Of a DNA stretch of 37,546 nucleotides, positions 1,855 to 23,680 are shown piece after piece (position 1 is the stretch's first letter; each line of letters starts with the position of its first letter). The notes below the pieces were generated by a model. That model saw only the letters and a program-made list of their open reading frames with translations. It did not search any database and was not told the origin of the DNA. A program made the position numbers and the translations under genes. Location of the stretch: contig JAGOUM010000025.1 in NCBI GenBank assembly GCA_018061265.1, positions 1 through 37,546 on the forward strand, in the 5' to 3' direction. This DNA comes from Rhodoferax sp. (GTDB taxonomy: Bacteria; Pseudomonadota; Gammaproteobacteria; Burkholderiales; Burkholderiaceae_C).

Positions 1855-1857
1855 GTC

Positions 1858-4017: not shown

Positions 4018-4041
4018 CCCACTGGGTTGGATTGAACCTTT

Positions 4042-4524: not shown

Positions 4525-4536
4525 AATCATCCAAAT

Positions 4537-5025: not shown

Positions 5026-5207
5026 AACCCAATGGTGTAAGGCGACGTGCAAATTTGACTCAATGAGCTACTCTTTTGAGAGCTACAAGCGCATACAAAA
5101 TTATGGATACAGGTTGATTCGTTGCATTTTTACGGAATCGACACCAACCGGCAGAATAATTTCTGATAAAACTTGATAATTAACGATAGTCACCGCAGGA
5201 GACGGCC
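5026..5207 (+). other. 182-bp gap upstream of the ATPase gene
   Basis: A small bulged stem-loop (AGCT-A-CTC, loop TTTT, GAG-AGCT; 5066-5084) lies early in the gap. It has no T-run and resembles short dispersed intergenic repeats that I recall from Comamonadaceae more than a terminator. The second half is AT-rich (for example TTGATAATTAACGATAGT), fitting a promoter for the ATPase gene, but no unique -35/-10 pair is called. Confidence 0.35.
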
Positions 5208-6416
5208 ATGTCCCAAACACCCGAACCCACCCAGGATCAGTTCTTTCATCGCCCCGAGCTGGCCGCCGCACTGGCCGATCAGGCGCTGGACACTTCGCTT
5301 GGAACCAGTGGCGGCATGTTTTTGGCGGCACCACGGCGCACAGGAAAATCGACCTTTGTGCGCCAAGACCTGGTGCCCGAGTTTGAGCGGCGCAACCTCA
5401 ATGTCATCTATGTGGACCTTTGGATCGACAAGACGGTGAACCCGGCGATTCATATCGCCAATGCCATCCGTACCGAGTTGGCACGCGAAGATGGGCCGAT
5501 TGCGAAAACGCTCAAAAAACTGACCAACATGTCCAAGCTGACGGTTGGTGCCTGGGGCAATGGCCTGAGTTTTGACCTCTCGCAGCTCAATCTGTCCAAA
5601 GATGCCACGCTGGCCGATGCGCTCAAGGCACTTTCCACCGCCAGTCAGAAAAAACTGATTCTGGTGATTGACGAGGCCCAGCATGCACTGACAACGGATG
5701 AAGGCATCAACGCCCTGTTTTCGCTGAAGGCGGCGCGCGACAGCCTGAACACCGATCCCGGTCGGTACGGCATGCAACTGGTTGCTACCGGCTCCAACCG
5801 CGACAAGCTGGCCACTTTGGTGAATGGGCGTGAACAGGCGTTTTATGGTGCCGACATGGTGCAGTTCCCCACCCTTGGCAAAGATTATGTGCAATGGTTG
5901 GTGGGACGCGCGAAACTCAATCTGGACATTGACTTGGCGACCGAGGTGTTTCAAAGCCTGGGTTCCCGGCCTGAGCCCTTTCGCAAAGCGCTGAGCCAAA
6001 CGCGGCTGCAACTGGCGGTCAATGCCGCTCAGGATGCCAATGCGATGCTGGCCAGCCTGGCTGCCAAAGGGGTTCGAGACTCCAAAACGGATTTTCTCAA
6101 CACGGTGGCCAGTTTGCCGCCGCTGCAGTCGGCCCTGTTGCGCGAGTTGGCCGCTGACTCTTTGCGGGGGCCGGATGTACGCCGCCCCGGCCTGTTTTCC
6201 GCTGCCATGAAGGCGCGTTTGTTGGCGCGGCTGGAGGTTGAGATGGGCGCGGCCCACGGGGTGTCGGTTGAAACACCGTCGGTGCAGAACGCGCTGGACA
6301 AATTGCGCGAAGAGAATTTTCTGTGGCGTTCGCAGCGCGGGTCTTATGCGGTTGAAGACGAACAGTTTTTAGAGTGGTTGGCGGAGGAGGATCAGGACTC
6401 GAAGGGAATTCAATAG
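5208..6416 (+). CDS. AAA-type ATPase
   Basis: This is a 402-residue P-loop ATPase. Walker A is APRRTGKST at about residues 41-49, Walker B is LILVIDEAQH near residue 150, and a sensor-like strand ending ATGSNRD follows near 200. The C-terminal 120 residues look like a helical lid plus winged helix (SVQNALDKLREENFLW, then GSYAVEDEQFLEWLAEE). The organisation resembles ORC/Cdc6-like or STAND-type ATPases that are common in defence islands and in transposition helpers. The ATG is preceded by GCAGGAGACGGCC, a strong ribosome site. A 182-bp upstream gap suggests its own promoter. The gene converges on the helicase gene ending at 6471. Partner and substrate are unknown. Confidence 0.82.
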   Translation: MSQTPEPTQDQFFHRPELAAALADQALDTSLGTSGGMFLAAPRRTGKSTFVRQDLVPEFERRNLNVIYVDLWIDKTVNPAIHIANAIRTELAREDGPIAKTLKKLTNMSKLTVGAWGNGLSFDLSQLNLSKDATLADALKALSTASQKKLILVIDEAQHALTTDEGINALFSLKAARDSLNTDPGRYGMQLVATGSNRDKLATLVNGREQAFYGADMVQFPTLGKDYVQWLVGRAKLNLDIDLATEVFQSLGSRPEPFRKALSQTRLQLAVNAAQDANAMLASLAAKGVRDSKTDFLNTVASLPPLQSALLRELAADSLRGPDVRRPGLFSAAMKARLLARLEVEMGAAHGVSVETPSVQNALDKLREENFLWRSQRGSYAVEDEQFLEWLAEEDQDSKGIQ

Positions 6417-6470: not shown

Positions 6471-9400
6471 CTAGTTGATATTCGGAACCGTCCTGAACGG
6501 GGTCTGGTTCAAGCCATCCGGTAGTGGGGCATCGGTACCTGCTAAATTGGAGTGTTCTTTTGCGTACAGTAGCGGCGCTAATCGAATCATCAGTCTGCTC
6601 CTGAGTTCCATGAGGTCGGGTTCGGACAACTTGAGGTCCTTCAGGTATTCGAGCAATTCACACTGCCCCGGCTGCCCAAACGCCAGGCGGTAAAGAGACA
6701 AAATCTTGAGCATTCCCGCGTAAACGTGATCCTCCCTACTCAGAGGCAAGAGCGGAACAATTCTTCTCAGCTTGGCGGTACCGTCGGGAAAGTGCCAGAA
6801 CGGAACCAAATCCGTCCTGTTTGGGACCAATGCAGCGGCGCCAAACAGATCAGACCAACCTTGATCGCAGCGCAACGTGGACTTGTAGCTTTCCACGACA
6901 CGCCGGCGCACCATATAAGACTGGTAGCGGTTGACACGTCCCTCCCTTTGCTCGATATCGATAGCATTCTCTGGCAAATTCCAATGCACAACATCGCTGC
7001 AATACCAGTGAAAGTCCAACCCCTCCTGACCGATCGACGTTGAAGTAAGCACAAAGGGGCGAAACGGCGAGTTGAAGCTTTCCCGAATGCTCACGACGCG
7101 TTTCAGGCCCGCCTCATCGCTGGTCTTTTGAGTGCCAAAAGGAACCGCGTAGTGGCAGCGAAGGTGGGTGTCGTCCTTCTGATCAACGCGCCAAAGCTTG
7201 ACGTTGGAGGGGTTGACGCCCAATGCGCTCTGGATGGCATCGACCGCCGCAGGAGCGTCATTGGAAGATGACAGCATAAACAGGTACTCGCTCAGCATTG
7301 CCTGCATCCCGCCATTCACGCAGTATTCGAGGATTCCATGCCAGTTCTTCCTCTTGGCAACCCTGCGAATAACCGCCCCCCCGCTCAGGCTGTTGAAGAG
7401 ACCCACGAACGATAGAGCCACCTTGCTTGCAAGACCAATCGGTATTTTCTCTTCTGGATAGGCTCCCTGCAAAGCCCGGTAAGCACAGACAGCGGGTGAA
7501 CCAATGGACAGCATAGCAAGGTAATGGGCAAGATCATCGGGCATTTCGCCCAATTTCTGTGGGTCTTTTTCGAATTGAGTTGCGATATCCGTCAACCGAC
7601 TGGTAACACTATCCGAGAGGTTCAACTTCCGCATCTCAGTCAGCCAGGCGTCGGACCAAAGCGTGCTTTTGCTGGCATCGGTATGAACTTTGCTATCAAG
7701 CAAGACAGGCGCAAGAAAATACCAGTGATTTTTTTGACCACCACCGCGATCAGTGGCTAAAGGCAACAGCAGCTCTTCGAAAAGCTTGGTTCGATCAGCT
7801 ATCAGCTGATCCAAAGGAACGTCTGCCTGTTCGAGTCTGGCATCAATAAGCACCTTCGACGGATAAAGCAGTGACCAGTACGCCAGATCCCCCGCGTCCA
7901 GCCTGATCATCCTGGAGGCTTCGCTCTGCCCATTATCCTCTTGGGAATCAACCTTGGAACCCTTCTTGCGCTTGAGAAAGTACCTGCTGTCACCCACACG
8001 CTTTCCCAAGGTCCGACGCTCCGACTCGTAGCTCAACAGGCCGCTCAACATTCGAGGGACCATCGCCCAGGCGGAAAACACAAGCGTCTTGCTGAAGCCG
8101 CCGTGTGCAGCGAATGGGCCTGCAAGTGGGTAGTGAGGAAGAGACGGTGGAACCCAAAGCAAAAGCTCTGGTCCAGGATTCTGGTCGTCTCCGAACAAGT
8201 GCCTTGTCAACATCCGGACCTTTGGATTCGGCGCATCTCTCGCAACGTTGAGCTGGAACTGATTGACCTTGTCTCGTGGAAGCCAAAGCTGTCGCGCACG
8301 TCCAACGGCGAGCGCCGCCACATCAGGATCGGTTTTAAACTGCCTAACAAGTTCGTCCTGCAACTTGTATCCAGTGCAGAACGTAAGCGGCCAAGCCGCC
8401 GACTTGAAGAACTCCATCATCTGCCCAGACATGCTTGTGCGGAGATTTTTCTCAAGTGTGACCACTAACCGATCAAGCTCAATGAAAGCTTGAATGTCAA
8501 GTGGCCTAAAGTCTTTGCATTCCAACTTGAGTTCATCCAACACATCGTCAACATTGGCAGCGATCTGGCTGCGTTCGGTTCGCGTAATTAGTGGACGAAG
8601 AATGTTTTCGACGTTCATCCTAGGCTGCTCGGAAAGTTGATCGACGGCAACATCCTTCTGCCTCAGTCGCAACATCTCGGACTGAAGCCGTTTCCGTGCA
8701 GGTTCGTATGCATCCAGCGGGACCAAATTCAAGAACGTCAAAATTTGCTTGAGACTGCCCAAGTGCCCCTGATCCACTTCATCGTCATTGGGTGTTGTCA
8801 CCGCCTTGAACGGGGTCGCGGACAGAAGCAGGACCTTGGAGCGCTGCTCGTTGTGAAACACCTGCTTGGCAATCAAGCCTTGATCGCTGTCTTCTGAATC
8901 CTCGATCAGTTCCTTGAATCGCTGAAACTCATCCAGGATAAACAGATCCGCACGCAGATTGGCGGCACAGCAGCCAACAAAAATCTGCCGAAGCCGACGC
9001 AGCACGCTGGCTTCATTGGGATTATTTTCAGTCATCCCCTGCATCGCAATCCTCCGGAGCAGCACCAACCAGGTTCCATCGGCGGGGCAGGCTTGGTCCA
9101 CAAGTTGGGCAAGCTTCGCACCAAACGCACCGACAATTTCTGGACATAGGGGAAGCAATTTGACGGTCGCAAGATCAGCATTCCATCGTTCGGTGTTCTC
9201 TACGCGGGCACGGAACAGGTCGGTAAGTCCGGCCTCAAGTCTCATCAAGTCTTGCTGAGCCAGTGACTCCGAGAAAACCCTCAAAATGGCCGCAAAAATG
9301 AGCAGACGCTCGCGCATATTCCCGCTGCCGGAGGTAAGGGAAAATGAAGTGCTCGGCGTCAACGAGCAGATCTCGAGTACAGCACCGTCGTCTTCATGAG

Positions 9401-9776
9401 TGTGTGATAGATCCACAACCTCAGCAAGCCGGGAAAATGATGGTCCTCGTACATATTTCGACTTGAGTTTCTCGGAAAAAACTGCCAGCTTCTTTCGATT
9501 CTCACCAGCAAGTGCCAGGTTGGAACAGATGTAGGTGACCCGCATCGGACGCGGCAGTGTCCACCCTGCCAGCAAACTGGCGATCACACCCCTCGCTACG
9601 ATGGTTTTGCCCAAACCGACTTCGTCGGCGACGAGCACACGACCCGAATGATCTTTCTCACCAAACAGACGTATGACCTCGTCGACCGTCGCACGCTGAA
9701 AATCTTTTAAACCACTCTGCGTCAAACGCAGCGCCTGATTCATTTCAATATTCCGCGGGGCGTCCAGTTTCCTCAT
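6471..9776 (-). CDS. Large SF2/SNF2-type DNA helicase (defence-type)
   Basis: This 1101-residue protein has a Q-motif-like start (GLKDFQRATVDEVIRLF), Walker A in VLVADEVGLGKTIVARG at about residues 47-63, motif II as FILDEFQRF near 280, and motif III as LLLSATPFKAV near 315. The C-terminal RecA domain carries TSTSIGQEGLDFHWY and QREGRVNRY near residues 915-945. Motif II is DEFQ rather than DEAH/DExH. Helicases of this build (related in style to SNF2-like DISARM DrmD and to stand-alone defence helicases) move on duplex DNA. No nuclease or methylase domain was seen in it. Its ATG overlaps the stop of the PLD gene by 4 bp (ATGA at 9773-9776), so the two are translationally coupled. A role in sensing or processing invading DNA together with the PLD protein is inferred. 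Confidence 0.9.
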   Translation of the reverse strand: MRKLDAPRNIEMNQALRLTQSGLKDFQRATVDEVIRLFGEKDHSGRVLVADEVGLGKTIVARGVIASLLAGWTLPRPMRVTYICSNLALAGENRKKLAVFSEKLKSKYVRGPSFSRLAEVVDLSHTHEDDGAVLEICSLTPSTSFSLTSGSGNMRERLLIFAAILRVFSESLAQQDLMRLEAGLTDLFRARVENTERWNADLATVKLLPLCPEIVGAFGAKLAQLVDQACPADGTWLVLLRRIAMQGMTENNPNEASVLRRLRQIFVGCCAANLRADLFILDEFQRFKELIEDSEDSDQGLIAKQVFHNEQRSKVLLLSATPFKAVTTPNDDEVDQGHLGSLKQILTFLNLVPLDAYEPARKRLQSEMLRLRQKDVAVDQLSEQPRMNVENILRPLITRTERSQIAANVDDVLDELKLECKDFRPLDIQAFIELDRLVVTLEKNLRTSMSGQMMEFFKSAAWPLTFCTGYKLQDELVRQFKTDPDVAALAVGRARQLWLPRDKVNQFQLNVARDAPNPKVRMLTRHLFGDDQNPGPELLLWVPPSLPHYPLAGPFAAHGGFSKTLVFSAWAMVPRMLSGLLSYESERRTLGKRVGDSRYFLKRKKGSKVDSQEDNGQSEASRMIRLDAGDLAYWSLLYPSKVLIDARLEQADVPLDQLIADRTKLFEELLLPLATDRGGGQKNHWYFLAPVLLDSKVHTDASKSTLWSDAWLTEMRKLNLSDSVTSRLTDIATQFEKDPQKLGEMPDDLAHYLAMLSIGSPAVCAYRALQGAYPEEKIPIGLASKVALSFVGLFNSLSGGAVIRRVAKRKNWHGILEYCVNGGMQAMLSEYLFMLSSSNDAPAAVDAIQSALGVNPSNVKLWRVDQKDDTHLRCHYAVPFGTQKTSDEAGLKRVVSIRESFNSPFRPFVLTSTSIGQEGLDFHWYCSDVVHWNLPENAIDIEQREGRVNRYQSYMVRRRVVESYKSTLRCDQGWSDLFGAAALVPNRTDLVPFWHFPDGTAKLRRIVPLLPLSREDHVYAGMLKILSLYRLAFGQPGQCELLEYLKDLKLSEPDLMELRSRLMIRLAPLLYAKEHSNLAGTDAPLPDGLNQTPFRTVPNIN

Positions 9777-11563
9777 TTCGTTGTCCCCAGGAATGTCTTA
9801 TATTGCTTCCACAAATGTTGAAATTTAACCGGTACTTTCACATTCATCGAATTGAGCCGGTTGAGCAGAATATCAATCCGTCTGAGCTGCTCTGGCTGGC
9901 GTGAAGCGCTTCGCAACAGTGACTCAAAGACCGGTCCACTGATCAGCTTGTTCAACGCCCCATCGCCCGCCGTATTGAAAGATCGGCTCAGGTCAATGCC
10001 AAACAGCTCTGCCCTATCACAATCCGGCTGCAACAGCATTTGAACGTAGGCCATGAACTTTTCCTGGCTATCGATCAACTCCGCGTAAATTTTCTGGTCA
10101 CGCCTGTCTCCACCTTCAATTTTCAACGCAGCCTTGACGATTCCCTCCCATGCCGCGTCAACGCCAATCACAATACGCAACCTAAGAAACGCGCTAATCT
10201 GGGTTGTGGCCATTCCGGACCAGACCAGCGGGGAAGAAAGCGGCTTGAATGAGCCAAACGAAATCTGCCCAACCTCGATTGCTGCGAGATGCTCTGGCGC
10301 AATATTTCTGAAGTCGGGCGAGAAACCAACTGAGCAGGTATAAGTATTTTCATCATCTGATCGGGCGCTAACCGTCCATTGCGTATTGATCAGTTGATGT
10401 ACAAGTTGACGGCGAACCTGGCTGTCAAGCGGTTCTTCAATTTCAGTCGCCGCCTCAAAGACATGGCGCACAAAGATCCCCGTTGGCTCTTCTGGAGACC
10501 CAACAAGTTCATGAATCGCCTGCTGGGGAGATAAATCGCTACCCGAACCGGACATTCGTAACATGAATTCGGTATTGCGTGGCAGCGCTGTTCCATCGCC
10601 TAGCGCTGCTGTCGTGGCATTTGCCGACCCGACATGCCAATGGGTTGTATCTCCGTTCTTGACAAAAATCGCCTTTGCATGAAGATTCTGAACCATGGCG
10701 TGGTCGAGATCATCGATATCATCCTCCCCACTAACAACGCGCTCACTGAGGCAATAGCACTCCCAGTCGGCAAGGCGGGCTTCACCGATGCGATTCATTT
10801 CTTCGGCGCGGCTGAATAACCAGCGATTTGCGGCCTTCGACTTCAGAAAATCGAGAGCTTTCGGGTGCAGAAACGGTGAAATTACAAGGATTGAATCGGT
10901 ACCGCGACCGAAGTTGATAGGAACGCGCCGATCATCCCCCAGCAGAGTTTCAAGCCGACCAAACCCAGGTGGCCTTGCCCATTGCACGAATGGCAACTCC
11001 TTTTTGAATGCCGAAAAGGCAACGGCAAAGTCCGGTGCTTTTGAAGCAAGTCCGGTCAAGAGGTCGATCAACCCATCGCTTTCCGCATTTCTTGCATCCC
11101 TAACCTCTCCCTCGAGGGTGACGGCCAGGTCCCAGCTGCGATCAAATGTGAGATTTCTTGAGAGGACAAGAAGCCGATAGCGCACCTTCTTCCTGGCATC
11201 GATGAAGCGAAGCAGCCAGATTTTTGGATGAAAAGAACTGAAAACCTCTCCCGGAACCACCGGCACAATGCAAGGCTCCAGGAGGGTGAAGAGACGGTTG
11301 AAGCTGTGCGGCGCACTGATGTTGCCCTGCTGAAAGAATACCTTTAGCCGGCCGCTCAGCTGGCCGATTGCTTCAAGCATGGCCATCTTCTCGCCCTTCA
11401 AGTCTCCTTCCAGTGTGCTGTCAAGGCATAGCGCCACTGGCAGGCAAAGCAGAGCGTCAAGATCGAGCGAAAATGTGGTTGCTATGGCATAGCTCAGTTC
11501 GAACCCGACAGGTGCGCGCAGGTTATCTCCGTAATCGATGCGATTTTGGTTTGGAACAATCAT
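9773..11563 (-). CDS. Phospholipase-D-fold protein (putative nuclease)
   Basis: This 596-residue PLD-superfamily protein carries two HKD-type half-sites. The first is SFHPKIWLLRF near residue 112 followed by LVLSRNLT near 137. The second is NLHAKAIFVKNGDTTHWHVG followed by SANATTAAL in the middle of the protein. In prokaryotic defence loci (for example DrmC of DISARM) this fold is usually a nuclease, not a lipase. The start chosen is the ATG at 11563, which overlaps the DUF6361 stop as ATGA (11560-11563) and gives the expected opening MIVPNQNRIDYGDNLRAP. A longer frame from 11641 would overlap the upstream gene by 82 bp and is less likely. The first half-site has H-x-K and S-R-N and the second H-x-K and GSAN, so catalysis is plausible. 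Confidence 0.88.
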   Translation of the reverse strand: MIVPNQNRIDYGDNLRAPVGFELSYAIATTFSLDLDALLCLPVALCLDSTLEGDLKGEKMAMLEAIGQLSGRLKVFFQQGNISAPHSFNRLFTLLEPCIVPVVPGEVFSSFHPKIWLLRFIDARKKVRYRLLVLSRNLTFDRSWDLAVTLEGEVRDARNAESDGLIDLLTGLASKAPDFAVAFSAFKKELPFVQWARPPGFGRLETLLGDDRRVPINFGRGTDSILVISPFLHPKALDFLKSKAANRWLFSRAEEMNRIGEARLADWECYCLSERVVSGEDDIDDLDHAMVQNLHAKAIFVKNGDTTHWHVGSANATTAALGDGTALPRNTEFMLRMSGSGSDLSPQQAIHELVGSPEEPTGIFVRHVFEAATEIEEPLDSQVRRQLVHQLINTQWTVSARSDDENTYTCSVGFSPDFRNIAPEHLAAIEVGQISFGSFKPLSSPLVWSGMATTQISAFLRLRIVIGVDAAWEGIVKAALKIEGGDRRDQKIYAELIDSQEKFMAYVQMLLQPDCDRAELFGIDLSRSFNTAGDGALNKLISGPVFESLLRSASRQPEQLRRIDILLNRLNSMNVKVPVKFQHLWKQYKTFLGTTK

Positions 11564-12762
11564 GCGAGTCCGATCTGGATATCTTTCAAAATAGTCCGAA
11601 CGTTTGACCATCGATAGTTCAATCGCCCCATACCTATCCATGTGTAATCCGGCGGCAACCGTTTCTTCAGCAAAGTTCTTTCCCCCTTATTCCATTCAGC
11701 CTGCTCTTTAACGAGCTGATCTAACAGGTCAACCTGCTTGCTCTCGCCCACCTCAGAGATCCATTTTTGGAGAAAAATTGTTGTACGACGGGGCAAACGT
11801 GCTTCCGTATCCGCTAACCAGTTATTCAGCATCCTTGAGTTCGATTGGACTGTGGAAATCCATTCCTGCCAGCTACTTTCATGGGATGCGACGAGATCAT
11901 CGCGCTCGTTGCGCCTGGCCAAAAGACAGTTGAATCGGAGATGAGCGCCGTAGATCAGCTCACTGAATTCCGCCGCCATTTTTAGCGTGTTGCGCGCTGC
12001 AGCAGAAAAAGCCAACTGCCTCTGCCCCCATTCTGCGAACAAATTGAAGTCGTGCCGACTGTCATCTAGTGCTTCATTCATCAGCCCATGCAGTTCAAAC
12101 TGCGTTGGGAAACTGTTGACCGGCCCCATGTGCAGGCGTTCAATCAAAAATGATGACTCCGAACGAGTCAACAGGATGCTCAAATTTTCGAACCACTCCG
12201 GTTCAAATCTGTCCAGTTTGACTCGGCTGAGTGGACGCAGCCCGTCTGGGTCGTCGTCCTCTGCTTGCTGCACGCAGCCAAACACAGGCTCAGGCACTGC
12301 GATTTCCCGCTGAAACTGGCCTAGGGAAACTGTCGTGTTGACAAGTCCCCAGACCCGCAAAGCCCCCCAGTAGACCGAGGATGGCAAGCGAGCGACACCT
12401 CCGGTGTCGATCTTTGTTGATCCAATGATGCCTGTTTCGCTCTCACCATGGAGTTTTGTCAGCACACGGGCCAGTTCGTTCTCTCGTTCACGCAGGTATT
12501 TGTCGAGTTTCGTTCTGCGTTGGTCAGATGTGCTGAGCAGGAGATAGTCCCGGATCATCCGTGGAACGGTGATGAGGTACTTCGCTCTCGTTTGAATCGT
12601 GGAAAATCCAGGAAACATCCGATCGGCAAAAGCATCGCGCAGCGCACCGATACCCAATTCGTCCAGCGTTCCAGGCTCATTGAGTTGACCCAAAACCTGC
12701 TTCACCCGATCCCGATCTGTCGAAGAAAAATCCACCCATCCGACCTGACTAATTAGGCCCAT
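11560..12762 (-). CDS. DUF6361-like protein
   Basis: The 400-residue protein opens MGLISQVGWVDFSSTDRDRV and continues with NEPGTLDELGIGALRDAFAD, RMFPGFSTIQTRAKYLITVP and RMIRDYLLL. This conserved N-terminus is the signature I associate with the DUF6361 family. The biochemical role of that family is unknown to me. The body has an acidic mid-section and helix-rich C-terminus with many Trp and Arg residues. The ATG at 12762 is preferred because GGAG lies nine bases upstream; the frame can extend to a TTG at 12777. Its stop overlaps the PLD start (ATGA). The fixed DUF6361-PLD-helicase order implies the three proteins work as one unit. Confidence 0.8.
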   Translation of the reverse strand: MGLISQVGWVDFSSTDRDRVKQVLGQLNEPGTLDELGIGALRDAFADRMFPGFSTIQTRAKYLITVPRMIRDYLLLSTSDQRRTKLDKYLRERENELARVLTKLHGESETGIIGSTKIDTGGVARLPSSVYWGALRVWGLVNTTVSLGQFQREIAVPEPVFGCVQQAEDDDPDGLRPLSRVKLDRFEPEWFENLSILLTRSESSFLIERLHMGPVNSFPTQFELHGLMNEALDDSRHDFNLFAEWGQRQLAFSAAARNTLKMAAEFSELIYGAHLRFNCLLARRNERDDLVASHESSWQEWISTVQSNSRMLNNWLADTEARLPRRTTIFLQKWISEVGESKQVDLLDQLVKEQAEWNKGERTLLKKRLPPDYTWIGMGRLNYRWSNVRTILKDIQIGLA

Positions 12763-12777
12763 TAAATTTATCTCCAA

Positions 12778-12895
12778 TCCAAGCTGTTTTCATTATTTTC
12801 ATTTGGTCATTCCAGCATCTTTCCAGCGGTTGAACACCGGCGCAACGCATACGAGTAGACAGTGTCAAAATGTAGAGGGTATCGAGGGCTCACGA
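12778..12895 (-). other. Gap between the AddA-like and DUF6361 genes
   Basis: This 118-bp gap is the only clear break inside the minus-strand gene train below the AddB-like gene. On the minus strand it contains a TTGACA hexamer about 95 bases before the DUF6361 start. No good -10 element was seen at 16-18 bp from it, and no hairpin with a T-run. Either the six genes are one transcript with a gap, or a weak promoter here lets the DUF6361-PLD-helicase triad be expressed alone. Confidence 0.35.
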
Positions 12896-15800
12896 TCAAC
12901 CTGCGGCCACCGCCACCATCTGCCCAGCCACCGGCAAAAACAACCACTGCCCCACCACCTTGCGCCCACTGCTGAGTTCAATCGCCTGGGCATAAGCCGC
13001 CAGTTGCCCGGCATAGTCACTGACCAATTCATCCCATTTGCCTGCCCCCAATGGCGATGATTTATGGTCAATCAGCACCCAGCCACCGGGTGTATCCAGC
13101 AGCAAATCAATCCGGCCATTCATGATTTGCCCGTTGGGCAGCTCCACCTTCACGGGCACTTCGGCCAAGGGCTTGCAGCCCGGCCAGTTTTGGCTGATAC
13201 AACCATGCAGCGCTTGTATTTGCCGGTGAACAGCCTCGGGGGCGATGTGACGCAACACGTCAAAGCCACGCAAAACGTTGCTGACTTCTGCCACGGTGAT
13301 GGGTTTGCTCACATCCGTAAAGCTGGTGGCCAGGCAGGCATGCAGGGCTGAGCCCAAGACACCCCACTCGATTTGCGCCGGGTTCGCCAAGCTGATGCGT
13401 TCACCCACCGCAATACTTTGGCCAGCGCGGGCGTCCACCCTGCTGGCTGCCGATGGGTTGGTGTAAAGCGGTAGGCGTGTGCCAAAGGCCTTGTCCGCAA
13501 ACCAGTAGACCGGTTGGCCTGCTTTTGGCTGTGGCTCACACTCAAGCGCGGGCGCCAACACCCAGTTCACAGTAGGCACTTGTTCGCCAGAAGGCAATTC
13601 AATGGCCGTGATGTCGTTTTCAGCTGAGGTATCTGATGGGCATAACCAATCGGCACCCAGCGACTCAAGCCAGGGTTCCTGCTTGGCGGTACTCAGGTGC
13701 GTCAACACCATGAGTTCCCGGGCGCGTGTCATGCTCACATACAGCAGGCGCTGCGCTTCAGCCGTGGCAGCGTTTTTGAAAGCGGTTGCGGTTTCAGTGG
13801 CCTCGATACGGTCAAGCACCGGGATGCCTTTGGCTTGTTTGCCGAACGGCCAGGGCCAATACCGGATGACGCGGTGGGCCAAGGGGTCAGAGGCCTGAAC
13901 CGCTTGGGTGGACACTGCGCTGATGCCCCAAAGGCGGCTGCGTGACTCATGGTCCAGATCTGCCAGGATGACCACCGGCCATTCCAGCCCTTTGGCGGCG
14001 TGGTGGGTCAGTAAACGCACGGCGTTGACACTGGGTTCAGCCTGCGCGTCTTGCTCTTCGGCAGCCTGGTTGGTCAACCAGAGCAACAAGCCTGAAATGG
14101 TTGCTGCCTGGCGGGTGCTGCTGCAGTTGTCTTCATACTGCGCCGCCATTTCCAGCAAGGTTTCCAGATTGGCCAAACGTTGTCGCCCGACGTTGGCATC
14201 TTGGCGCCATGCCAGCACGCGCTGTGATAACTGTCCCGCACTGATGACCCGTTGCAAAGCCTCCAGTGGGGACAGCAAAGGCAGTTCCTTGCGCAGTGAG
14301 GCCATCAATGACACCAGCGGATGGGCCTGGTCACCCGTTTCACGCCAAAGTGTTTTGCTGGCACCCTGCTGTGCCAGGTAGGTCAGGCGGTCTGCCAACC
14401 ATTCTTCCGGCTCGGCACCATCGGCCAGGGAAATGATCTCTGCCGTGGCCACCGTGTCTGCAGAGTCATTGAGTCGGCGCAGGCACGCCAATGCCAAAGT
14501 GGCTTCCGGCGTGGCCAACAAGCCTGGTCTGGAGGTGGCGACCGCCACACCGGCCTGGTGCAAGCCGGCGGCATATTCGGTGATCCGGCTGTGGCTGTAA
14601 CACAGGATGGCGATGTCACGCGCCTGCAGCTCACGGGCAAGCTGGGTGTCCTTGTCCGGAATCTGCATGCCAGATGCCAACAAACGGCGCACACCTTGGG
14701 CGATGGCGTTTGATTTTTCGGTGGCGTTTTTGCCAGAAACAGTCCAATGCGCCAGGGCGGGCTCTGCCAACACCTCTTTCCGCTGGGGTTGGAGGGCAAT
14801 TTCCTCTGAGGCCAACTCTGCTGCAAAAGTTTTGGTGAAGATGGTGTTGACCAAGTGCACCAAGGCCGGGCGTGAACGCCAGGAACTGCTCAGCACTTGC
14901 TTGCTGCCGCCCATGCTGGGCAGGGCTTGAAGAATGGACTGCATCAGCGCGGTGTCACTCCCACGGAAACCATAAATGGCCTGCTTGATGTCACCCACCC
15001 AGTAGGTATTGCGCGCCAACTTTGAGAGCTTCAGAAACAGGGCCAGCTGGATCGGGCTGGTGTCCTGAAACTCGTCCACCAACAACAGATCAAGTTCATC
15101 CTGAAGCACTGCCGCCACTTCGGGGTGGTCCAGCAACTGAAGCAGCAGGTGCTCTTGGTCGGTAAAGTCCACCACGCCCAAAGCGAGTTTGCGCACCCGG
15201 TAATGTTCCAGGGCGCCCTCGCAAAGTTCAAACATCAGCGTCAGGTACTGACGGATGTCTGCGTGCAGTTGCGGGTGTCCGTCACAGGCCCGTGCCAGGT
15301 CCAAAACAGGTTCAGCTAGCGGGAGCAACGCTTTTTCTGGGGCGTCTTTGGACAAGGCGACCCATTCAGACCAAGGTGGTGGGTTGTTTTTTAACTGGCG
15401 GGCAAATTTCTCAAGCTTTTCAATGAAGTTAGCGGTGTTTTTCTTGGGCTTGGCATCGGCCAGCACGGCATTTTTGAGTTGCGGCAAAGCCAGTTGAATG
15501 GCTTGGTACAAATCTTCGGTGAGCGTGGTCCGTAGCGGTGCAGAAAACTGCGCCAGCAGCTCATCTGCGTTGTATTGGGCAAAGCCTTGCAGTTGGGCGG
15601 CCGCAATGTTGTTGCCTCGCGCCTGTGAAACCAGGGTCTTGAGGTCCTGGGTCCAGTCCTCAATGCCCAGCAAATTAGCCAGGCGCGACAGGGTGGCAAC
15701 CTGCTGGCCTGTTTGTGCAGCGTGGATGGCTTCGCGCACCAGCACGGTTGCCTGACCGTCTTCAATGACTTGTTGACGCGTGGGCATGCCTGCTTCAAAG

Positions 15801-16066
15801 GCAAAGCGTTCCAGCAACGCGCCGCAGACGCTGTTGACCGTGCCAATACTGGCTTGGCCCATGGCGTTGGCCATGCCAATGTCACCCTGCTGCAAGAGGT
15901 GCTGACGCACGCGTTCTCGCAATTCTGTGGCGGCTTTTTTGGTGAAGGTGGTGGCCAGCACCCCTGCAGGTCTGACGTTGCCGTCTTTGAGCAATTGGCT
16001 CAGGGTCTGGGTCAGCGTAAAAGTTTTGCCGCTGCCAGCCCCGGCGCTGATGAATGTCAGACTCAT
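12896..16066 (-). CDS. AddA/RecB-like UvrD-family helicase with C-terminal nuclease
   Basis: This 1056-residue SF1A helicase-nuclease has Walker A SAGAGSGKT at about residues 7-15, motif Ia FTKKAATELRERV, motif II LLLVDEFQDTSPIQ near 325-340, WVGDIKQAIYGFRGSD just after, motif V LTHHAAKGLEWPVVI, and motif VI LLYVSMTRAREL near 775. The last 200 residues carry a RecB-type PD-(D/E)XK nuclease: GSALHACLA, GRIDLLLD, WVLIDHKSS near 1000 and YAGQLAAYAQAI. It should unwind and degrade DNA from ends together with the AddB-like protein encoded just upstream. The ATG at 16066 overlaps the AddB-like stop as ATGA (16063-16066) and is preferred over a TTG at 16081. This could be an island-borne AddAB-type repair enzyme or a defence effector. 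Confidence 0.9.
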   Translation of the reverse strand: MSLTFISAGAGSGKTFTLTQTLSQLLKDGNVRPAGVLATTFTKKAATELRERVRQHLLQQGDIGMANAMGQASIGTVNSVCGALLERFAFEAGMPTRQQVIEDGQATVLVREAIHAAQTGQQVATLSRLANLLGIEDWTQDLKTLVSQARGNNIAAAQLQGFAQYNADELLAQFSAPLRTTLTEDLYQAIQLALPQLKNAVLADAKPKKNTANFIEKLEKFARQLKNNPPPWSEWVALSKDAPEKALLPLAEPVLDLARACDGHPQLHADIRQYLTLMFELCEGALEHYRVRKLALGVVDFTDQEHLLLQLLDHPEVAAVLQDELDLLLVDEFQDTSPIQLALFLKLSKLARNTYWVGDIKQAIYGFRGSDTALMQSILQALPSMGGSKQVLSSSWRSRPALVHLVNTIFTKTFAAELASEEIALQPQRKEVLAEPALAHWTVSGKNATEKSNAIAQGVRRLLASGMQIPDKDTQLARELQARDIAILCYSHSRITEYAAGLHQAGVAVATSRPGLLATPEATLALACLRRLNDSADTVATAEIISLADGAEPEEWLADRLTYLAQQGASKTLWRETGDQAHPLVSLMASLRKELPLLSPLEALQRVISAGQLSQRVLAWRQDANVGRQRLANLETLLEMAAQYEDNCSSTRQAATISGLLLWLTNQAAEEQDAQAEPSVNAVRLLTHHAAKGLEWPVVILADLDHESRSRLWGISAVSTQAVQASDPLAHRVIRYWPWPFGKQAKGIPVLDRIEATETATAFKNAATAEAQRLLYVSMTRARELMVLTHLSTAKQEPWLESLGADWLCPSDTSAENDITAIELPSGEQVPTVNWVLAPALECEPQPKAGQPVYWFADKAFGTRLPLYTNPSAASRVDARAGQSIAVGERISLANPAQIEWGVLGSALHACLATSFTDVSKPITVAEVSNVLRGFDVLRHIAPEAVHRQIQALHGCISQNWPGCKPLAEVPVKVELPNGQIMNGRIDLLLDTPGGWVLIDHKSSPLGAGKWDELVSDYAGQLAAYAQAIELSSGRKVVGQWLFLPVAGQMVAVAAG

Positions 16067-18759
16067 GCGTCTTCTCCCCAACCGGCCAGCACCCGATAGT
16101 CGTTGTAATTTTGATTGAGGATGTCCATGGCCATGCCGTCCTCTGGCGCGGTTGAGTCATCGTTTTCTTCAAGAGCAACTTCGATCAAACCCTGATCAAG
16201 CTGCTGGCGGCGCCACTTCCACGAGATCAGAAAACGTTCCCATAAGTGGGCTGCACCTTCATCAGCGACATTGGCATTCTTTCTGACCAGTCGAGCCTGG
16301 GGAAAGAAGTCTTGATCTGTTGCCAACAACTCGGCACTGTTGAGAATAAAGTAGGCCAGCCGGGGCCACTGCCCAGTTTTTTGTCGCTGCAGTTCGCCAT
16401 AGATCGCCAACTGCAGATGACGGTTGAGAGCGAGCTTGTCTGGGTACTTTTTGCCGCCAGACCACTTCATGTCCACAATGGCTTGTTGACCGTCCTTGCG
16501 CGTCAACAGCAAGTCGGCCGATCCTGCAATCTTTCCGCCAACAAACTGGCCGCTGACAGTGACTTCGGGCTCCACCTTGATCACATGGGCCGCATGAAGT
16601 TGTGCACGCAGCTGTTGCATGGCAAAACACAGCTTTCTGCGGAAAGAGGCCAAATCCTCATTCCTGCCTGGCATCAGCAGGATGGCACCTTCGTCAGCAA
16701 TCAAGGTGTCAAACGCAGGCTCAAACCACTTCAGGAATTCTTCATTGCTCTGGGTGAGTGCGAAGGGCTCAGTCACATAGTGCTCCACCAGATGGTGGGC
16801 CAAAGTGCCGTACAGCAGGAAGCTGTCGCTGATGTCCAGAATGCTGCTGGCTTTGAGTGCCGCAGGGTAGGTCAACACCCACTGGTAGGGGTTGAAGAGA
16901 AAGGACTCCAGGCTGGAGAACGACTCGGTTTCCCGACGCGCAATGGCGATGGACGGGGGCAGTTGCCACATGCGTTTTTGGGCTGGCAGCGGCTGGTAGG
17001 GTTGTGCTGTCAAACCTTTGGGGTTAGCGGCTGCATCTGGGCTGGTCAGCAGACTTTCGAGTGCCTGGGGTTTGGGTGGATGTTGCTTGTCAAACAAGGA
17101 CTCCAGCATCAGCCACAGTGGGTGCAGCTCAGACCCGGCACGCGGCAGAATCAGGGTGAGTTGGCGCCTGGCCGCAGTGATTGGCCGTTGCCAGTGTTCG
17201 GCCTGTTGGCTCAACAAGTCTGAAATCGCAGGCAAATCAACACCAGCCTCACGCAAGCTGGTTTGCTCGCGCAGGGACCATGGGTAGGCGTTGGGGATGG
17301 ATTGCGCTTTCAACTGCCACCAGATGACATGGTCTGCCGCCTCGGTCGCCGCGCCAGGTGACGTGATGCCACGGCAAGCTCCCAACTCCGCCACCAAAAG
17401 CGGGTTGGCGGAACCACGCGACGTGGCCTGATCCAGCAAGGTTTGCAATTGTTGCGGGTTGATGCGGCTGTCACCCTGCAGGACCAAGGCTCGAAGAGAA
17501 CGCAGGCAGGTCAGGGTTTGTGACTGGCCGCTGATGAAGGCCAGACGCTTGGCCGGATCAGTTTCTTGGGTACGTCCATGAAAGTAGTCAGCCAAGGCCT
17601 GAACCCGTGTGATCACGGCTTCCAGAGGGGCACCCATGGCCGGTTCAAAATGATCATGTTCCAGCCAAACACGAATACGGTGGCGGACATGTTCCCAGTC
17701 ATAGTCCAATTTGGTGCAAGCGTCTTGGATGTCTTGCAGGGCCGTGTCCCAGGCTTGCCCTTGCCCCATTCCGGGTGAGCGCGTGAGCATATTGGCCAAA
17801 CGGGTTCGGGCCATGCCAGGTATGGGGCAGATGGGATGGGTCAAAAACTCCAGCAGCCCAATCAGGTTCAATGGATTCCACAACTGCCCCAATGCAAGAG
17901 GCAGAACCTGCAGGGCGGGTCGGGCTGCACTGCTCTGCGAGAAACCTTGACGCGCCTGTGAGGCCGCCGCCAGTGTGTCATCAAGCATGGCTGCGTCCGG
18001 GGCAAGTAATAACGTTTGGCTTGCTTGGTCAGGGGAAAGCTTGGCCAATTCGTCAGCGAGCCAGTTGCCAGCCAACGCCCGGGTTTCCGACTGAACGATG
18101 CGCAGTGTCCCGTCGTCTTGCCACTTGAGTTTGTGTGGCTGTTGGCCTTGTTCCAAGGCACATAACGCCCCTTGCACCTGCGCAAGCATGGATGCGTTTT
18201 GGGGTGTTTCAGAACTGATGGCAGGCACTGCACTTTGGGCTACCAGCGGCAGTGTTTGCAAAACCACCCGCCAGGCTTTGGGCCAGGTTGATAACTCGTC
18301 CAGCAGGGTGACACTGGCGATGCGCGGCTTGCGTACTTGCATTGCTACGTGGATTTGGTGAAGTCGTTCACCGATGCCGGGTTCGAGCGCAATTTGCGTG
18401 AGGCCTTCAAGCGCCGACATGTCACGCAGACGCCTGGAGGTGGCCGATGTCAGATCGGTACCGTGCCAACACCATCCATGCAGGTGCCATTGGTCGCGCC
18501 ATGCCAATAACGTGGCGGCTGTACCCAACTCGTCAACGAGAAAGCTCTGGTGGTAAAAGCGGGTAGGGCTATCAATTTGTTTGAGTCTTTGGCGGTACTG
18601 AAGGATTCGCTCGGAGGTTGGCGCTTCAATATGCAACAGCCCCAGTTGGGTTTCGAGTAAGTTGAGCATGCCCAAAGGGCCTGTCGTGATGGCATCGAGT
18701 TGCTTTTGATGGACCTCACGATGTTGGCCATCAAGTTCCAGCCCCAATCGAATTTTCAT
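16063..18759 (-). CDS. AddB-like PD-(D/E)XK nuclease subunit
   Basis: This 898-residue protein has a C-terminal RecB-type nuclease: GTLAHHLVEHYV, then GSADLLLTRKDG, AIVDMKWSGGKKY near residue 760, and HLQLAIYGEL. These supply the His, Asp, Asp-x-Lys and Gln positions. The long N-terminal part is helix-rich and AddB/RecC-like in arrangement. Two usual AddB features are absent: there is no Walker A at the N-terminus, and there are no cysteines after the nuclease, so the iron-sulfur clamp of classical AddB is missing. The ATG at 18759 has GGAG nine bases upstream, and the frame can extend to a TTG at 18810. Coupled by ATGA to the AddA-like gene, it should form a two-subunit DNA-end-processing enzyme. 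Confidence 0.85.
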   Translation of the reverse strand: MKIRLGLELDGQHREVHQKQLDAITTGPLGMLNLLETQLGLLHIEAPTSERILQYRQRLKQIDSPTRFYHQSFLVDELGTAATLLAWRDQWHLHGWCWHGTDLTSATSRRLRDMSALEGLTQIALEPGIGERLHQIHVAMQVRKPRIASVTLLDELSTWPKAWRVVLQTLPLVAQSAVPAISSETPQNASMLAQVQGALCALEQGQQPHKLKWQDDGTLRIVQSETRALAGNWLADELAKLSPDQASQTLLLAPDAAMLDDTLAAASQARQGFSQSSAARPALQVLPLALGQLWNPLNLIGLLEFLTHPICPIPGMARTRLANMLTRSPGMGQGQAWDTALQDIQDACTKLDYDWEHVRHRIRVWLEHDHFEPAMGAPLEAVITRVQALADYFHGRTQETDPAKRLAFISGQSQTLTCLRSLRALVLQGDSRINPQQLQTLLDQATSRGSANPLLVAELGACRGITSPGAATEAADHVIWWQLKAQSIPNAYPWSLREQTSLREAGVDLPAISDLLSQQAEHWQRPITAARRQLTLILPRAGSELHPLWLMLESLFDKQHPPKPQALESLLTSPDAAANPKGLTAQPYQPLPAQKRMWQLPPSIAIARRETESFSSLESFLFNPYQWVLTYPAALKASSILDISDSFLLYGTLAHHLVEHYVTEPFALTQSNEEFLKWFEPAFDTLIADEGAILLMPGRNEDLASFRRKLCFAMQQLRAQLHAAHVIKVEPEVTVSGQFVGGKIAGSADLLLTRKDGQQAIVDMKWSGGKKYPDKLALNRHLQLAIYGELQRQKTGQWPRLAYFILNSAELLATDQDFFPQARLVRKNANVADEGAAHLWERFLISWKWRRQQLDQGLIEVALEENDDSTAPEDGMAMDILNQNYNDYRVLAGWGEDA

Positions 18760-18867
18760 AGACCACTCCCATTTTTTTATTTGATTGGAACTCAGTGTGA
18801 CACAGCGCAATGTCTTCGCTGCCAGCAGCGTGGCTGCGGAAAACTTGCTTTCACCGGGAACGCACCG

Positions 18868-19872
18868 TCATGTTGGTTTTTTCGATGTCAATGCATCCAT
18901 CAGGCTCTCAGGCGCCAACACCTCAACACTGTCACCCTGGCTGCGAATCCACCAAACCAGCATGGATGAGTCGGTCAGTGTGGCTTTGAGTTCACAGCCT
19001 CCCTTTTGCCCCACATAGGGCGTGATGACCTGGTTGGTAGCCAACGGGGATTCGGCCAGCAGCACGGCCAATTCATCCTTGACCCACAGGTGAAGGGTGA
19101 TCTTGCCGCCGACGCCAAATGCAAATCGGCCGTTGTCGTCGTACGCTTGCAGGTCAAAGTCTGGAGGGCGCTGAAAACGCAGGTTGGTGCATTTGGCCGT
19201 TTGAATACGGTGCAACGCCAGGTTGCGGGTGTCGTCATAACCCTCAAACCGACAGGGCAGGAACATGCGCACGCCTTGTTGGGCCAGGCCCAGTGGCATG
19301 ACCTTGGCCTGGGTGCGCTTGCTGACAGCATTGGTGTAGATGATTTCAAGCCAGCAGTTGTTGTACAGCGCCTGGCTGACTTGCTCAAACACCTCAGGCT
19401 TGATTTTTGGCGGCAACATGGGCAAGGTGGTGCTGACCACGCGCACCTTGCTCAGCCACTCTCGGGCACGGGCCACGGCCTCGCCTGAATGCATGGGTGA
19501 CAAATTGCGCCGGGCTTGTTCAAAAAAACCTTGCAATGACTTCATCAATGAGACTGGCAGTTGGTGGTGCAGGTGCTGTTCGGCCAGGGTCATCAACAAG
19601 GATTCCTGCTCGGTCAAACCAGGCAGTGACAAGCCTGGTGCTGATTCTTTCCAGCGGTAACCATAGGGGCGCGAGCTGTCATCACGCTCAATGTCGAAGT
19701 GTTCACACAAGGATTCAAGCTGCCGCTGGATGGTGCGCATGTCACGCTCATACCCGGCCTCTTTGAGCTGGATTTGCAGTTCACGCGAGTCAATCTTGCG
19801 CTGGCGTGGGATGCGCTTGAGCAGCTCCAGGCTAAGGTGCAGCGTTTCAAGGTTGTCGGGGCGTCGCGGCAT
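18868..19872 (-). CDS. WYL-domain transcriptional regulator
   Basis: The 334-residue protein starts MPRRPDNLETLHLSLELLKR, with an N-terminal winged helix (residues about 5-75, RTIQRQLESLCEHFDIERD). A central WYL domain follows (WLEIIYTNAVSKRTQAKVMP, GLAQQGVRMFLPCRFEGYDD, LALHRIQTAKCTNLRF), and then the WCX extension at the end. WYL proteins of this BrxR/CapW type sit at the head of defence operons and act as repressors, probably responding to nucleic-acid ligands. It lies 108 bp before the AddB-like gene in the same direction. The start is uncertain: this ATG lacks a Shine-Dalgarno, whereas the same frame stays open to a GTG at 20142 preceded by AAGAGGAATTCATC. The 90 extra residues are unlike known WYL proteins. 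Confidence 0.88.
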   Translation of the reverse strand: MPRRPDNLETLHLSLELLKRIPRQRKIDSRELQIQLKEAGYERDMRTIQRQLESLCEHFDIERDDSSRPYGYRWKESAPGLSLPGLTEQESLLMTLAEQHLHHQLPVSLMKSLQGFFEQARRNLSPMHSGEAVARAREWLSKVRVVSTTLPMLPPKIKPEVFEQVSQALYNNCWLEIIYTNAVSKRTQAKVMPLGLAQQGVRMFLPCRFEGYDDTRNLALHRIQTAKCTNLRFQRPPDFDLQAYDDNGRFAFGVGGKITLHLWVKDELAVLLAESPLATNQVITPYVGQKGGCELKATLTDSSMLVWWIRSQGDSVEVLAPESLMDALTSKKPT

Positions 19873-20851: not shown

Positions 20852-22057
20852 TCAAGCGACCTGCGTTGGCATCTTCAACACGTTTCCAGACTGGCGGCCA
20901 TCCAGATAGTCAGCCCACCATTGCATCACCTTCACCCGATCTTCAAGGTAGGTGCTTCGGTGGTAGGCGGCCCGGATTTCGTTTGCTTCTTTATGGGCTA
21001 GCTGGCGTTCGATCACGTCAGGATTCCAGCCACATTCGTTGGCCACCGTGGAAAACAGCGCCCTGAAACCATGGGCGGTTGCCGTGTTTTTGTAGCCCAT
21101 GCGTGCCAGGGCTGAATTGAAGGTGTTTTCACTCAGGGGCTTTGACGGATAGCTCGGGCTGGGGAACACCAGTTCACGCTTGCCGCTGAGTTTTTGCATG
21201 GTGCGCAACACTTCAAGGGCTTGGGTTGAAAGTGGCACCCGGTGCTCTACGCGCATCTTCATTCGCTGCGCCGGGATCGTCCACAGCGCCGCGTCAAGGT
21301 CGAATTCGGCCCAGCGTGCGCCGCGTGTTTCGCCCGGCCTGGTCGCCGTCAGGATCAACAGCCTCAGTGCGTGAGCCGTACTGGGATCACCGTCATAGGC
21401 GGCCAGCTTGGGCAGGAAGGCAGGCAGTTCTTTGTCAGACATCGCGGGCCGGTGCTGCACCTGCCGGGGTTGCAGGATTTCAGACGGAACCAGATCAAGC
21501 ATGGGGTTTGTTTCAATGCGTTCATGGATCACCGCCCAACGGTAAACCGCCTTGATCCGCTGCAACACCCTGCCCGCTTGATCGCTGGCACCCCGGGTTT
21601 CGATCAGCTTGACGGCCGCCATGATTTCGCCGGGCTTGATGGATGCCAGCGGCCGTGCGCCCAGTGTCTTGAAAATGTCCGCTTCAAGGGATGCCCGGAT
21701 ACGGGCAGCGGTTTCAACGTCCCACCGGGCGGCCTGGTGCTTCATCCAGTCAAGGGCAACCGCTTCAAGGGTGTTCACTGATTCGTGCACCGCCTTGGCT
21801 TTTTCAGCCTTGCGCAGTTCGCCGGGATCGCCGCCGTCTTTCAGCACTTTTCGGGCTTCATTGGCCAGGTCGCGGGCGCCCTTCAGGGTCACGCCAGGAT
21901 ACACACCAAAGGCAAGGCGCTTTTCTTTGCCGCCGTGTCGGTACTTCAAACGCCAGTAGCGGCCGCCCGCTTTGGTCAGTTCCAGATAAAGGCCACCTCC
22001 GTCAAAGTGTTTGCCGGGGTCGGTCAGGTTTCGTAGTTGCGCATCGGTCAGGGCCAT
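20852..22057 (-). CDS. P4-like tyrosine integrase
   Basis: This 401-residue site-specific recombinase integrates and excises the island. The DUF4102-type N-terminus opens MALTDAQLRNLTDPGKHFDG, followed by YLELTKAGGRYWRLKYRHGG. The catalytic domain shows the first Arg in LTATRPGETRGARWAEF, His-x-x-Arg in HGFRALFSTVANE, the second His in QLAHKEANEI, and the tyrosine region AAYHRSTYLEDRV. It ends VMQWWADYLDG, as P4-type integrases do. The ATG at 22057 is favoured over an upstream TTG (22117) because the family begins there. Its 5' end faces the island boundary and the EPS locus, so the attachment site should lie just to the right. No tRNA was found there. Confidence 0.95.
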   Translation of the reverse strand: MALTDAQLRNLTDPGKHFDGGGLYLELTKAGGRYWRLKYRHGGKEKRLAFGVYPGVTLKGARDLANEARKVLKDGGDPGELRKAEKAKAVHESVNTLEAVALDWMKHQAARWDVETAARIRASLEADIFKTLGARPLASIKPGEIMAAVKLIETRGASDQAGRVLQRIKAVYRWAVIHERIETNPMLDLVPSEILQPRQVQHRPAMSDKELPAFLPKLAAYDGDPSTAHALRLLILTATRPGETRGARWAEFDLDAALWTIPAQRMKMRVEHRVPLSTQALEVLRTMQKLSGKRELVFPSPSYPSKPLSENTFNSALARMGYKNTATAHGFRALFSTVANECGWNPDVIERQLAHKEANEIRAAYHRSTYLEDRVKVMQWWADYLDGRQSGNVLKMPTQVA

Positions 22058-22078
22058 GATGGGGGGTATCCTTGAGAG

Positions 22079-22100
22079 TTTGGGGGCACATTTGGGGGCA
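22079..22100 (+). repeat. Tandem TTTGGGGGCA direct repeat next to the integrase start
   Basis: Two exact 10-base copies (22079-22088 and 22091-22100) are separated by CA, giving a 12-bp period. A relaxed third copy may follow (TTTTGCGCCA). They lie just upstream of the integrase start and overlap any int leader. Binding sites for the recombinase or for int autoregulation are plausible. Confidence 0.5.
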
Positions 22101-22117
22101 TTTTGCGCCACTTTCAA

Positions 22118-23644: not shown

Positions 23645-23680
23645 CCCGCCTCAACCCACAGCCATTTTCGGCAGATTGCC

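Follow-up and report, generated by a model that had tools for sequence, protein, structure and literature searches.

Six consecutive genes on a genomic island of a Rhodoferax sp. raise the question of whether a helicase-nuclease pair resembling AddAB works together with the three-gene unit that follows it or only stands beside it. The stretch analysed (contig JAGOUM010000025.1 of assembly GCA_018061265.1, 37,546 nt; hereafter the window) carries genes for a WYL regulator, an AddB-like and an AddA-like protein (together AddBA), and ZacA, ZacB and ZacC. We favor, at a probability of roughly 0.55, reading the six genes as an anti-phage locus in which a complete Azaca system is armed with a dedicated helicase-nuclease of the AddB-AddA type and has the WYL regulator at its head. 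The Azaca triad is already known; what is new here is that Azaca recurrently has an AddBA partner, one that is replaceable and often accompanied by a WYL gene. Within titles and abstract openings we found no description of this union, and subscription journals were mostly outside that scope, so its absence from the literature is unproven.

The original prediction, made from the letters of the window, had described six co-directional minus-strand genes on an integrase-bearing island as a defence-like design with two helicase-nuclease modules. This layout held. The list of open reading frames (ORFs) and their translations place all six on the minus strand (Table 1), the ATGA overlaps lie exactly at 16063-16066 (AddB/AddA), 11560-11563 (ZacA/ZacB) and 9773-9776 (ZacB/ZacC), a tyrosine integrase stands nearby, and Pfam backs the domain names given to the regulator (WYL and WCX), AddB, AddA, DUF6361 and the helicase. 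The remaining two junctions are gaps of about 108 bp (WYL-AddB) and 133 bp (AddA-ZacA). The WYL ORF extends to 20142, with ATG candidates at 19872 and 19959, and scans for promoters and terminators gave no signal above the shuffled level.

Table 1. Coordinates of the six genes, their surroundings in the window and related arrangements elsewhere (L numbers denote other loci)
Feature	Location	Strand	Evidence or remark
WYL/WCX-domain transcription regulator	window 18868..19872	-	Pfam WYL 4.4e-8, WCX 4.8e-10
AddB-like, C-terminal PD-(D/E)XK nuclease	window 16063..18759	-	Pfam PDDEXK_1 3.5e-15; GSADL-x-DMK
AddA-like, UvrD helicase and PD-(D/E)XK nuclease	window 12896..16066	-	Pfam UvrD 1.5e-46, PDDEXK_1 1.1e-7
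ZacA (DUF6361), Azaca subunit A	window 11560..12762	-	PADLOC ZacA 3.4e-96; PF19888 1.6e-23
ZacB, predicted PLD-type nuclease of Azaca	window 9773..11563	-	PADLOC ZacB 1.4e-146; HPK/HAK/GSAN
ZacC, predicted SF2/SNF2-like helicase of Azaca	window 6471..9776	-	PADLOC ZacC 6.3e-266; helicase motifs
addA-zacA gap, 133 bp, seam between two modules	window 12763..12895	-	between addA stop and zacA start
Tyrosine integrase, island right edge	window 20852..22117	-	Pfam Phage_integrase 3e-22, Arm-DNA-bind_3 3e-23
AAA ATPase gene, convergent with operon, island backbone	window 5208..6416	+	90% identical to L004 counterpart
Island left part: YbjN, ADP-ribosylglycohydrolase, FtsK-gamma-domain protein, two genes without Pfam match, AAA ATPase	window 1381-6416		
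Exopolysaccharide cluster: export, chain length, flippase, O-antigen ligase-like, glycosyltransferases	window 22358-36809		
Shango-type genes (TerB protein, ATPase, helicase), then same-strand AddB-AddA	L057 5987-21397; L104 5564-17924		Phaeobacter sp. G2; Methylorubrum extorquens CM4
Window-type AddB-AddA, then directly Zorya type I operon	L006 478-13155		Nitrosospira metagenome contig
Multiubiquitin-ThiF-DUF6527 directly upstream of AddB-AddA-ZacABC	L041 6320-23879; L034 11520-29072; L043 6332-21132		Shinella and Agrobacterium plasmids
DEAD/DEAH helicase, ~950-1113 aa	L057 18062-21400; L105 19069-22407; L054 16608-19946; L138 17047-19902		85-90% identical to that of L057

A PADLOC model scan of eight window proteins (P0001-P0008) gave near-full-length matches to ZacA, ZacB and ZacC, in the Azaca gene order and with overlapping starts, and by these family matches the DUF6361-PLD-helicase triad is the named anti-phage system Azaca. 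The original prediction knew of no named system with all six genes; none of the models matched here names the union, but the triad does have a name. Upstream, AddB had no PADLOC match, the WYL protein matched two generic WYL models and, weakly, a Cas3c model, and AddA matched mainly generic UvrD models (GajB) among the matches listed (25 of 49 families). ZacB keeps its HxK...HxK...GSAN motifs (HPK, HAK, GSAN), which we take to be those of PLD proteins; these and the PADLOC match bear out the PLD nuclease call, but Pfam gave no match to PLD at E 0.01. The SF2 motifs of ZacC are likewise intact (Walker A GLGKT, DEFQ, SAT, QREGRVNR); the catalytic residues within the ZacB and ZacC motifs are presumed ones. 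Sequence searches found no solved relatives of ZacA, ZacB or ZacC, an AlphaFold2 model of ZacA from the window sequence alone had a mean pLDDT of 34, and no relatives of ZacA or AddB were found in viral contigs.

DISARM is built of DrmD, DrmA, DrmB and a methylase, and also has a PLD protein. The likeness to DISARM first seen in the PLD-helicase unit was not upheld: the DrmD equivalog scored 47.9 bits against a cut-off of 610, DrmB and the DISARM methylase were unmatched among the eight proteins, and the DrmA/DrmD helicase-domain models of PADLOC matched ZacC weakly. In the parts seen of the respective articles, PMC10952713 lists Azaca as having a PLD-like domain and cites Millman et al. 2022 for it, ZacC is used in a helicase tree (PMC12278908) and Azaca occurs in Pseudomonas island hotspots (PMC12629846); the literature passages on Azaca that we saw contained no mechanism.

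The AddB/AddA-like pair has the AddAB-type combination of a UvrD motor with two PD-(D/E)XK sites, one per subunit. In AddA, Walker A (GAGSGKT), DEFQD and the nuclease site GRIDL-x-DHK are all intact, as is the nuclease site of AddB. Across loci, the nuclease pattern was present in 30 of 32 AddA and 36 of 37 AddB sequences and helicase motif II in all 32 AddA. The two AddA sequences missed by the strict pattern are both linked to Zac (genome G726 and Sphingomonas NIC1); the G726-type AddA proteins have a looser ILD...DHK form (5/5). Cysteines for an iron-sulfur cluster are a trait of AddB. Motif inspection found no Walker A, no CxxC and no C-terminal cysteine cluster in the window AddB, and the cysteine pattern occurs in 15 of the 37 AddB sequences. 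The AddB profile matched the nuclease domains of PDB entries 7sjr, 6ppu and 4ic1 (two UvrD/REP-type helicase complexes and one small protein), presumably AdnAB in the first two and a Cas4 protein in the third.

Against the models of housekeeping enzymes the window AddA scored far too low (207.1 bits with TIGR02785, cut-off 707.65; 179 bits with TIGR02784, cut-off 860.75) and stayed under every curated AddA/RecB cut-off listed; AddB had no NCBIfam match. Because the host genome carries recC, recB and recD side by side on another contig (C216, 5626-14584), and because the window's own genome was the only one of 60 relatives searched to contain AddB, we class the pair as accessory. Pairs of the window's broad type also occur in several genomes of family f79 (L094-L099, L067 and L072), which are small (1.6-2.3 Mb), and are possibly the ordinary repair enzyme there.

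How often, then, do AddBA and Azaca meet? DUF6361 (PF19888) was found in 2/399 genomes of the window's order, 5/398 of its phylum, 7/311 of the order of G726 and 13/316 of that of G646 (G numbers denote genomes). Among 24 distinct genomes with a DUF6361 match, 21 were assessable, meaning that zacA was visible with 7.9 kb or more of upstream sequence; the downstream view was 0.3 kb after zacC in G983 and ~4 kb in G888. Three were excluded from the count: G272 and G1352 for their short contigs, and G1305 for a weak match with no Zac recognised. Using five AddA and five AddB queries (blastp, E 1e-6), we found AddBA beside Zac in 9/21 genomes: the window, G726, G1029, G924, G1264, G1250, G1371, G1369 and G1395 (8/20 without the window). 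The complete order WYL-AddB-AddA-ZacA-ZacB-ZacC is co-directional in five (the window, G726, G1029, G924, G1264), and in two more (G1371, G1369) it is the same with WYL divergent. A WYL gene was thus found in 7/9 of these genomes; none was found in G1250, where the nearest large upstream ORF encodes an aminotransferase, or in G1395. The stop codon of addA and the start codon of zacA overlap in G726, G1029 and G924 (gap -1; read as TGATG in G726); G1369 has an additional UvrD-like gene between the two. PADLOC confirmed Zac in G726, Niveispirillum and Methylocystis. Since the gene order recurs in distant genomes, the six-gene arrangement goes beyond chance, and the expectation that the six genes stand together elsewhere was borne out. 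The tie of the G726-type AddBA to Zac is a matter of ascertainment, since these pairs were found through ZacA searches only; the converse search, from AddBA, was not run.

On plasmids, ZacA occurs in 45 PLSDB records, and 13 of them have AddB within 7 kb, taking AddB among the matches listed (60 of 64 plasmid rows; several partner searches comprised 60 rows each, and partner counts are lower bounds). The hosts are Bradyrhizobium 195 and Niveispirillum (both with WYL divergent), Agrobacterium, Shinella, Rhizobium, Mesorhizobium, Methylocystis and Sphingomonas. Seventeen of these ZacA records count as AddB-less because no Cronobacter is among the AddB matches listed; they are Cronobacter records, one of which was inspected. 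Where a plasmid holds both genes, they lie within 7 kb of each other in 13/17 records; the number expected at random placement is ~1.1, and none of 1e6 simulations exceeded 8, under a null that ignores how defence genes cluster in general. Counting each genus-level lineage once, 8/9 are within 7 kb (0.54 expected). As a control, ZorA had AddB within 15 kb in 1/24 plasmid records, among the matches listed. The annotated addA-zacA gap of one such plasmid locus, L041, is 115 bp (an ATG inside addA would give -23). AddBA thus adjoins ZacABC both in unrelated genomes (9/21) and on plasmids (13/45), and the pairing is real and repeated.

The AddA tree is split into deep subfamilies, and its Zac-linked members sit in four places: the window (within a clade of Rhodoferax and L002 pairs), Methylocystis, the Bradyrhizobium 195 type and the G726 type. 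Upstream of zacA stand AddBA pairs of three unlike subfamilies, two of which interchange within one ZacC clade. On the ZacC tree the presence of AddBA needs 8 changes, compared with a mean of 12.3 for shuffled labels (as low in 4/500), so inheritance accounts for part of the association and regain for the rest. In one ZacC clade, 12 of 16 rows have AddBA, seven of the Bradyrhizobium type and five of the G726 type; as each type occurs in both halves of the clade, the slot before zacA has been refilled by an unlike pair. This refilled slot is, to us, the strongest evidence for a putative joint function with Azaca. The larger AddA and ZacC trees were quick searches without bootstrap, and trees with fewer rows were careful searches. 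In the latter, the Zac label needs at least 4 changes among labelled AddA rows, and the AddBA label at least 6 in the companion tree. In the larger AddA tree, which includes one of five f79 rows, the Zac label needs 2 changes, contrasted with two Shango rows only, a count that is hardly informative. Because tree rows were gathered by searching for Zac and AddB, paired loci are over-represented in the trees.

The same six-gene order in unrelated bacteria, with different versions of AddBA, suggests that the two units work together, and we consider cooperation likely. Some PLD proteins are nucleases, SF2/SNF2 proteins act as motors on double-stranded DNA, and AddAB-type enzymes enter DNA ends and degrade both strands. 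The WYL protein might hold the operon low until infection. ZacC, as a motor, and ZacA would find foreign or replicating phage DNA, which ZacB could then cut; AddBA would enter at the ends made by ZacB/ZacC, as the original prediction had proposed, and degrade both strands with its two nuclease sites, a role that fits its motifs. The cell would keep AddBA in addition to its RecBCD since the latter is blocked by many phages, and a divergent AddBA may evade that block. A recurring, swappable AddBA points to linear DNA ends as a product or substrate of Azaca.

The most serious alternative, a real if lesser possibility, is that AddBA is a general plug-in, a portable substitute for RecBCD that serves many end-making defence systems and counts Azaca as one client; it overlaps with the favored reading, and the odds of the two are not exclusive. 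Same-strand AddBA follows Shango-type genes in Phaeobacter sp. G2 (SngA, SngB and SngC confirmed by PADLOC) and Methylorubrum, and SngB lies within 3.3 kb of AddB in at least 8 plasmid records. A Zorya type I operon comes directly after AddBA in Nitrosospira, AddBA is divergent from BREX in Sinorhizobium, and multiubiquitin-ThiF-DUF6527 genes adjoin it in R. etli 8C-3 and Agrobacterium. A synergy of Druantia III with Zorya II that requires intact RecBCD, as given in the part seen of PMC13192584, also agrees with a plug-in. Among 86 AddB places listed, those with a given partner within 15 kb number at least 13 for Zac, at least 8 for SngB and at least 14 each for ThiF and WYL. Rates of AddB differ, however, between Azaca (13/45), ZorA (1/24, among the matches listed) and SngB (at least 8 of 695 rows, with 60 of the 695 listed), and defence islands gather all such genes anyway. 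We advance only tentatively the broader idea that AddBA is a portable end-degrader, a RecBCD substitute that escapes phage inhibitors, is traded among islands and plasmids, and acts as a second stage for break-making systems (Azaca above all, and Shango, Zorya, BREX and multiubiquitin), having become a near-standard, replaceable part upstream of zacA in one large Azaca clade. If AddBA does serve several systems, end degradation would be a shared step in the modular logic of defence islands, and the second such enzyme in cells bearing RecBCD would be explained.

Several of these neighbours deserve mention in their own right. On Agrobacterium, Shinella, Rhizobium and Mesorhizobium plasmids, multiubiquitin-ThiF genes stand upstream of AddBA and Zac, and it is possible that the multiubiquitin-ThiF-DUF6527 genes are a ubiquitin-like arm of the AddBA-Zac locus. 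A DNA methylase gene follows in two of the three such loci in Table 1. The DEAD/DEAH helicase listed there comes directly after AddBA in two loci and lies tail-to-tail with ZacC in two, with weak PADLOC matches. The WYL protein is of a generic kind, with a relative that heads the BREX locus of Sinorhizobium (L105); a CRISPR WYL gene is mentioned in the part seen of PMC9981886. WYL, AddB-AddA, an AAA ATPase and a type I restriction HsdR-like gene also occur in an unverified 'Bacteriophage sp.' record (MT835507; L061, 8594-26525), which is probably a bacterial defence island and not a phage.

Slightly less probable, but still a real possibility, is that the two units are independent neighbours, with WYL-AddBA a self-standing unit for defence or for plasmid or island maintenance and Azaca another, sharing an island and perhaps a promoter without cooperating. 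Several observations weigh against the favored reading. Azaca stands without AddBA in 12/21 genomes (G646, G582, G614, G983, G1093, G888, G964, G1253, G1163, G1309, G1190 and G1294), and AddB is not near Zac in 32/45 plasmid records, so AddBA is dispensable to Azaca. A Pfam scan of nine large unlabelled ORFs from 8 of the 12 loci found no missed AddA or AddB; the ORF upstream of zacA in G1163 encodes an AAA_11/AAA_12 helicase with an RNase_H_2 domain. The ZacC of G983 nests with that of Niveispirillum, yet no AddBA lies in the 10.8 kb upstream, on a contig that ends just past zacC. The arrangement also varies, since AddBA is divergent from Zac in G1395 and Sphingomonas NIC1 and downstream of it in Methylocystis, and the NIC1 AddA is short (991 aa) and without the nuclease motif, which its near-identical relative in G1395 has. 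A Fisher test of Zac against ZorA plasmids gave p 0.025 with near-clonal records in both sets, and adjacency alone is no proof of joint action, since defence genes cluster anyway.

In favor of independence, AddBA without Zac is common (Variovorax, L002, L004, L092, L093), and L004 and L002 are the nearest relatives. On the Rhodoferax contig L004, AddB-AddA (73/83% identical) is followed by the same AAA ATPase, with no Zac between; on L002, WYL-AddB-AddA (86/81/85% identical) is followed by short genes, toxin-antitoxin-like by eye, and then a second addA 3' end, with Zac absent at the seam as far as the contig reaches, 0.8 kb after addA. What comes after addA in this kin thus ranges from toxin-antitoxin-like genes (L002) and no zac (L004) to Azaca (window), Zorya (L006) and YbjN-M41 (L005). 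GC content is 0.52-0.53 for zac and 0.57-0.59 for WYL-AddBA, the modules being 133 bp apart. Because the nearest relatives lack Zac and the zac genes are lower in GC, Azaca probably joined a WYL-AddBA unit that was already there, inserting behind it, and the union looks recent here. The repeated 172-bp addA 3' end of L002 (11034-12086; 91% identical, ~0.7 kb downstream) flanks the toxin-antitoxin-like genes, and addA 3' ends may be an insertion hotspot.

Independence is harder to reconcile with the fixed order directly upstream of zacA, including a stop/start overlap in three genomes, with the way unlike AddBA subfamilies have refilled that slot in a single ZacC clade, and with the closeness of the two genes on 13/17 plasmids that hold both. 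The concern that the triad and WYL-AddBA might rarely be found together therefore ended in between: they meet in 9/21 genomes and 13/45 plasmid records, and Azaca and AddBA are each common without the other. By far the least credible view, that AddB and AddA are the host's ordinary repair enzyme and lie beside Azaca by accident, could draw on the complete helicase and nuclease motifs of AddA but founders on the AddA score (207 bits, equivalog cut-off 707.65), the separate recC-recB-recD genes, the lack of AddB in the 59 other relatives and the adjacent integrase.

Three genes of the left part of the island (AAA ATPase, an unknown gene and the FtsK-gamma gene) have relatives on L004, so this part looks like a mobile backbone. 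The exopolysaccharide locus beyond the integrase is also present in congeners; it contains low-GC stretches (0.41-0.48) at 28-33 kb. In DNA comparisons of congener regions with the whole window, exopolysaccharide genes were the sole matches, and the integrase and left-hand island genes were absent from 4/4 such regions (~12 kb upstream of the flanking exopolysaccharide gene in each). Searches of the window for attachment repeats gave nothing beyond one 14-base match, and no tRNA was found in it.

Compared with known systems, the locus is closest to Azaca in its three downstream genes and departs from Azaca as modelled in being headed by WYL, AddB and AddA. With DISARM it shares a SNF2-type helicase (ZacC) and a PLD protein; it differs in lacking matches to DrmB and the methylase and in a DrmD score far below the cut-off. 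Like AddAB, AdnAB and RecBCD, AddBA is a two-gene pair with a UvrD-type helicase and one PD-(D/E)XK nuclease per subunit. It is unlike them in an AddA under the curated cut-offs and an AddB without NCBIfam match, Walker A or cysteine cluster, and unlike housekeeping AddAB in being island-borne in a RecBCD-positive genome. The combination of Druantia III and Zorya II, as far as the part seen of PMC13192584 goes, offers a parallel in which a helicase-nuclease defence is tied to end processing of the RecBCD type, as we propose for the window. There the host RecBCD acts in trans, whereas the window operon carries an AddBA of its own that would cooperate with Azaca.

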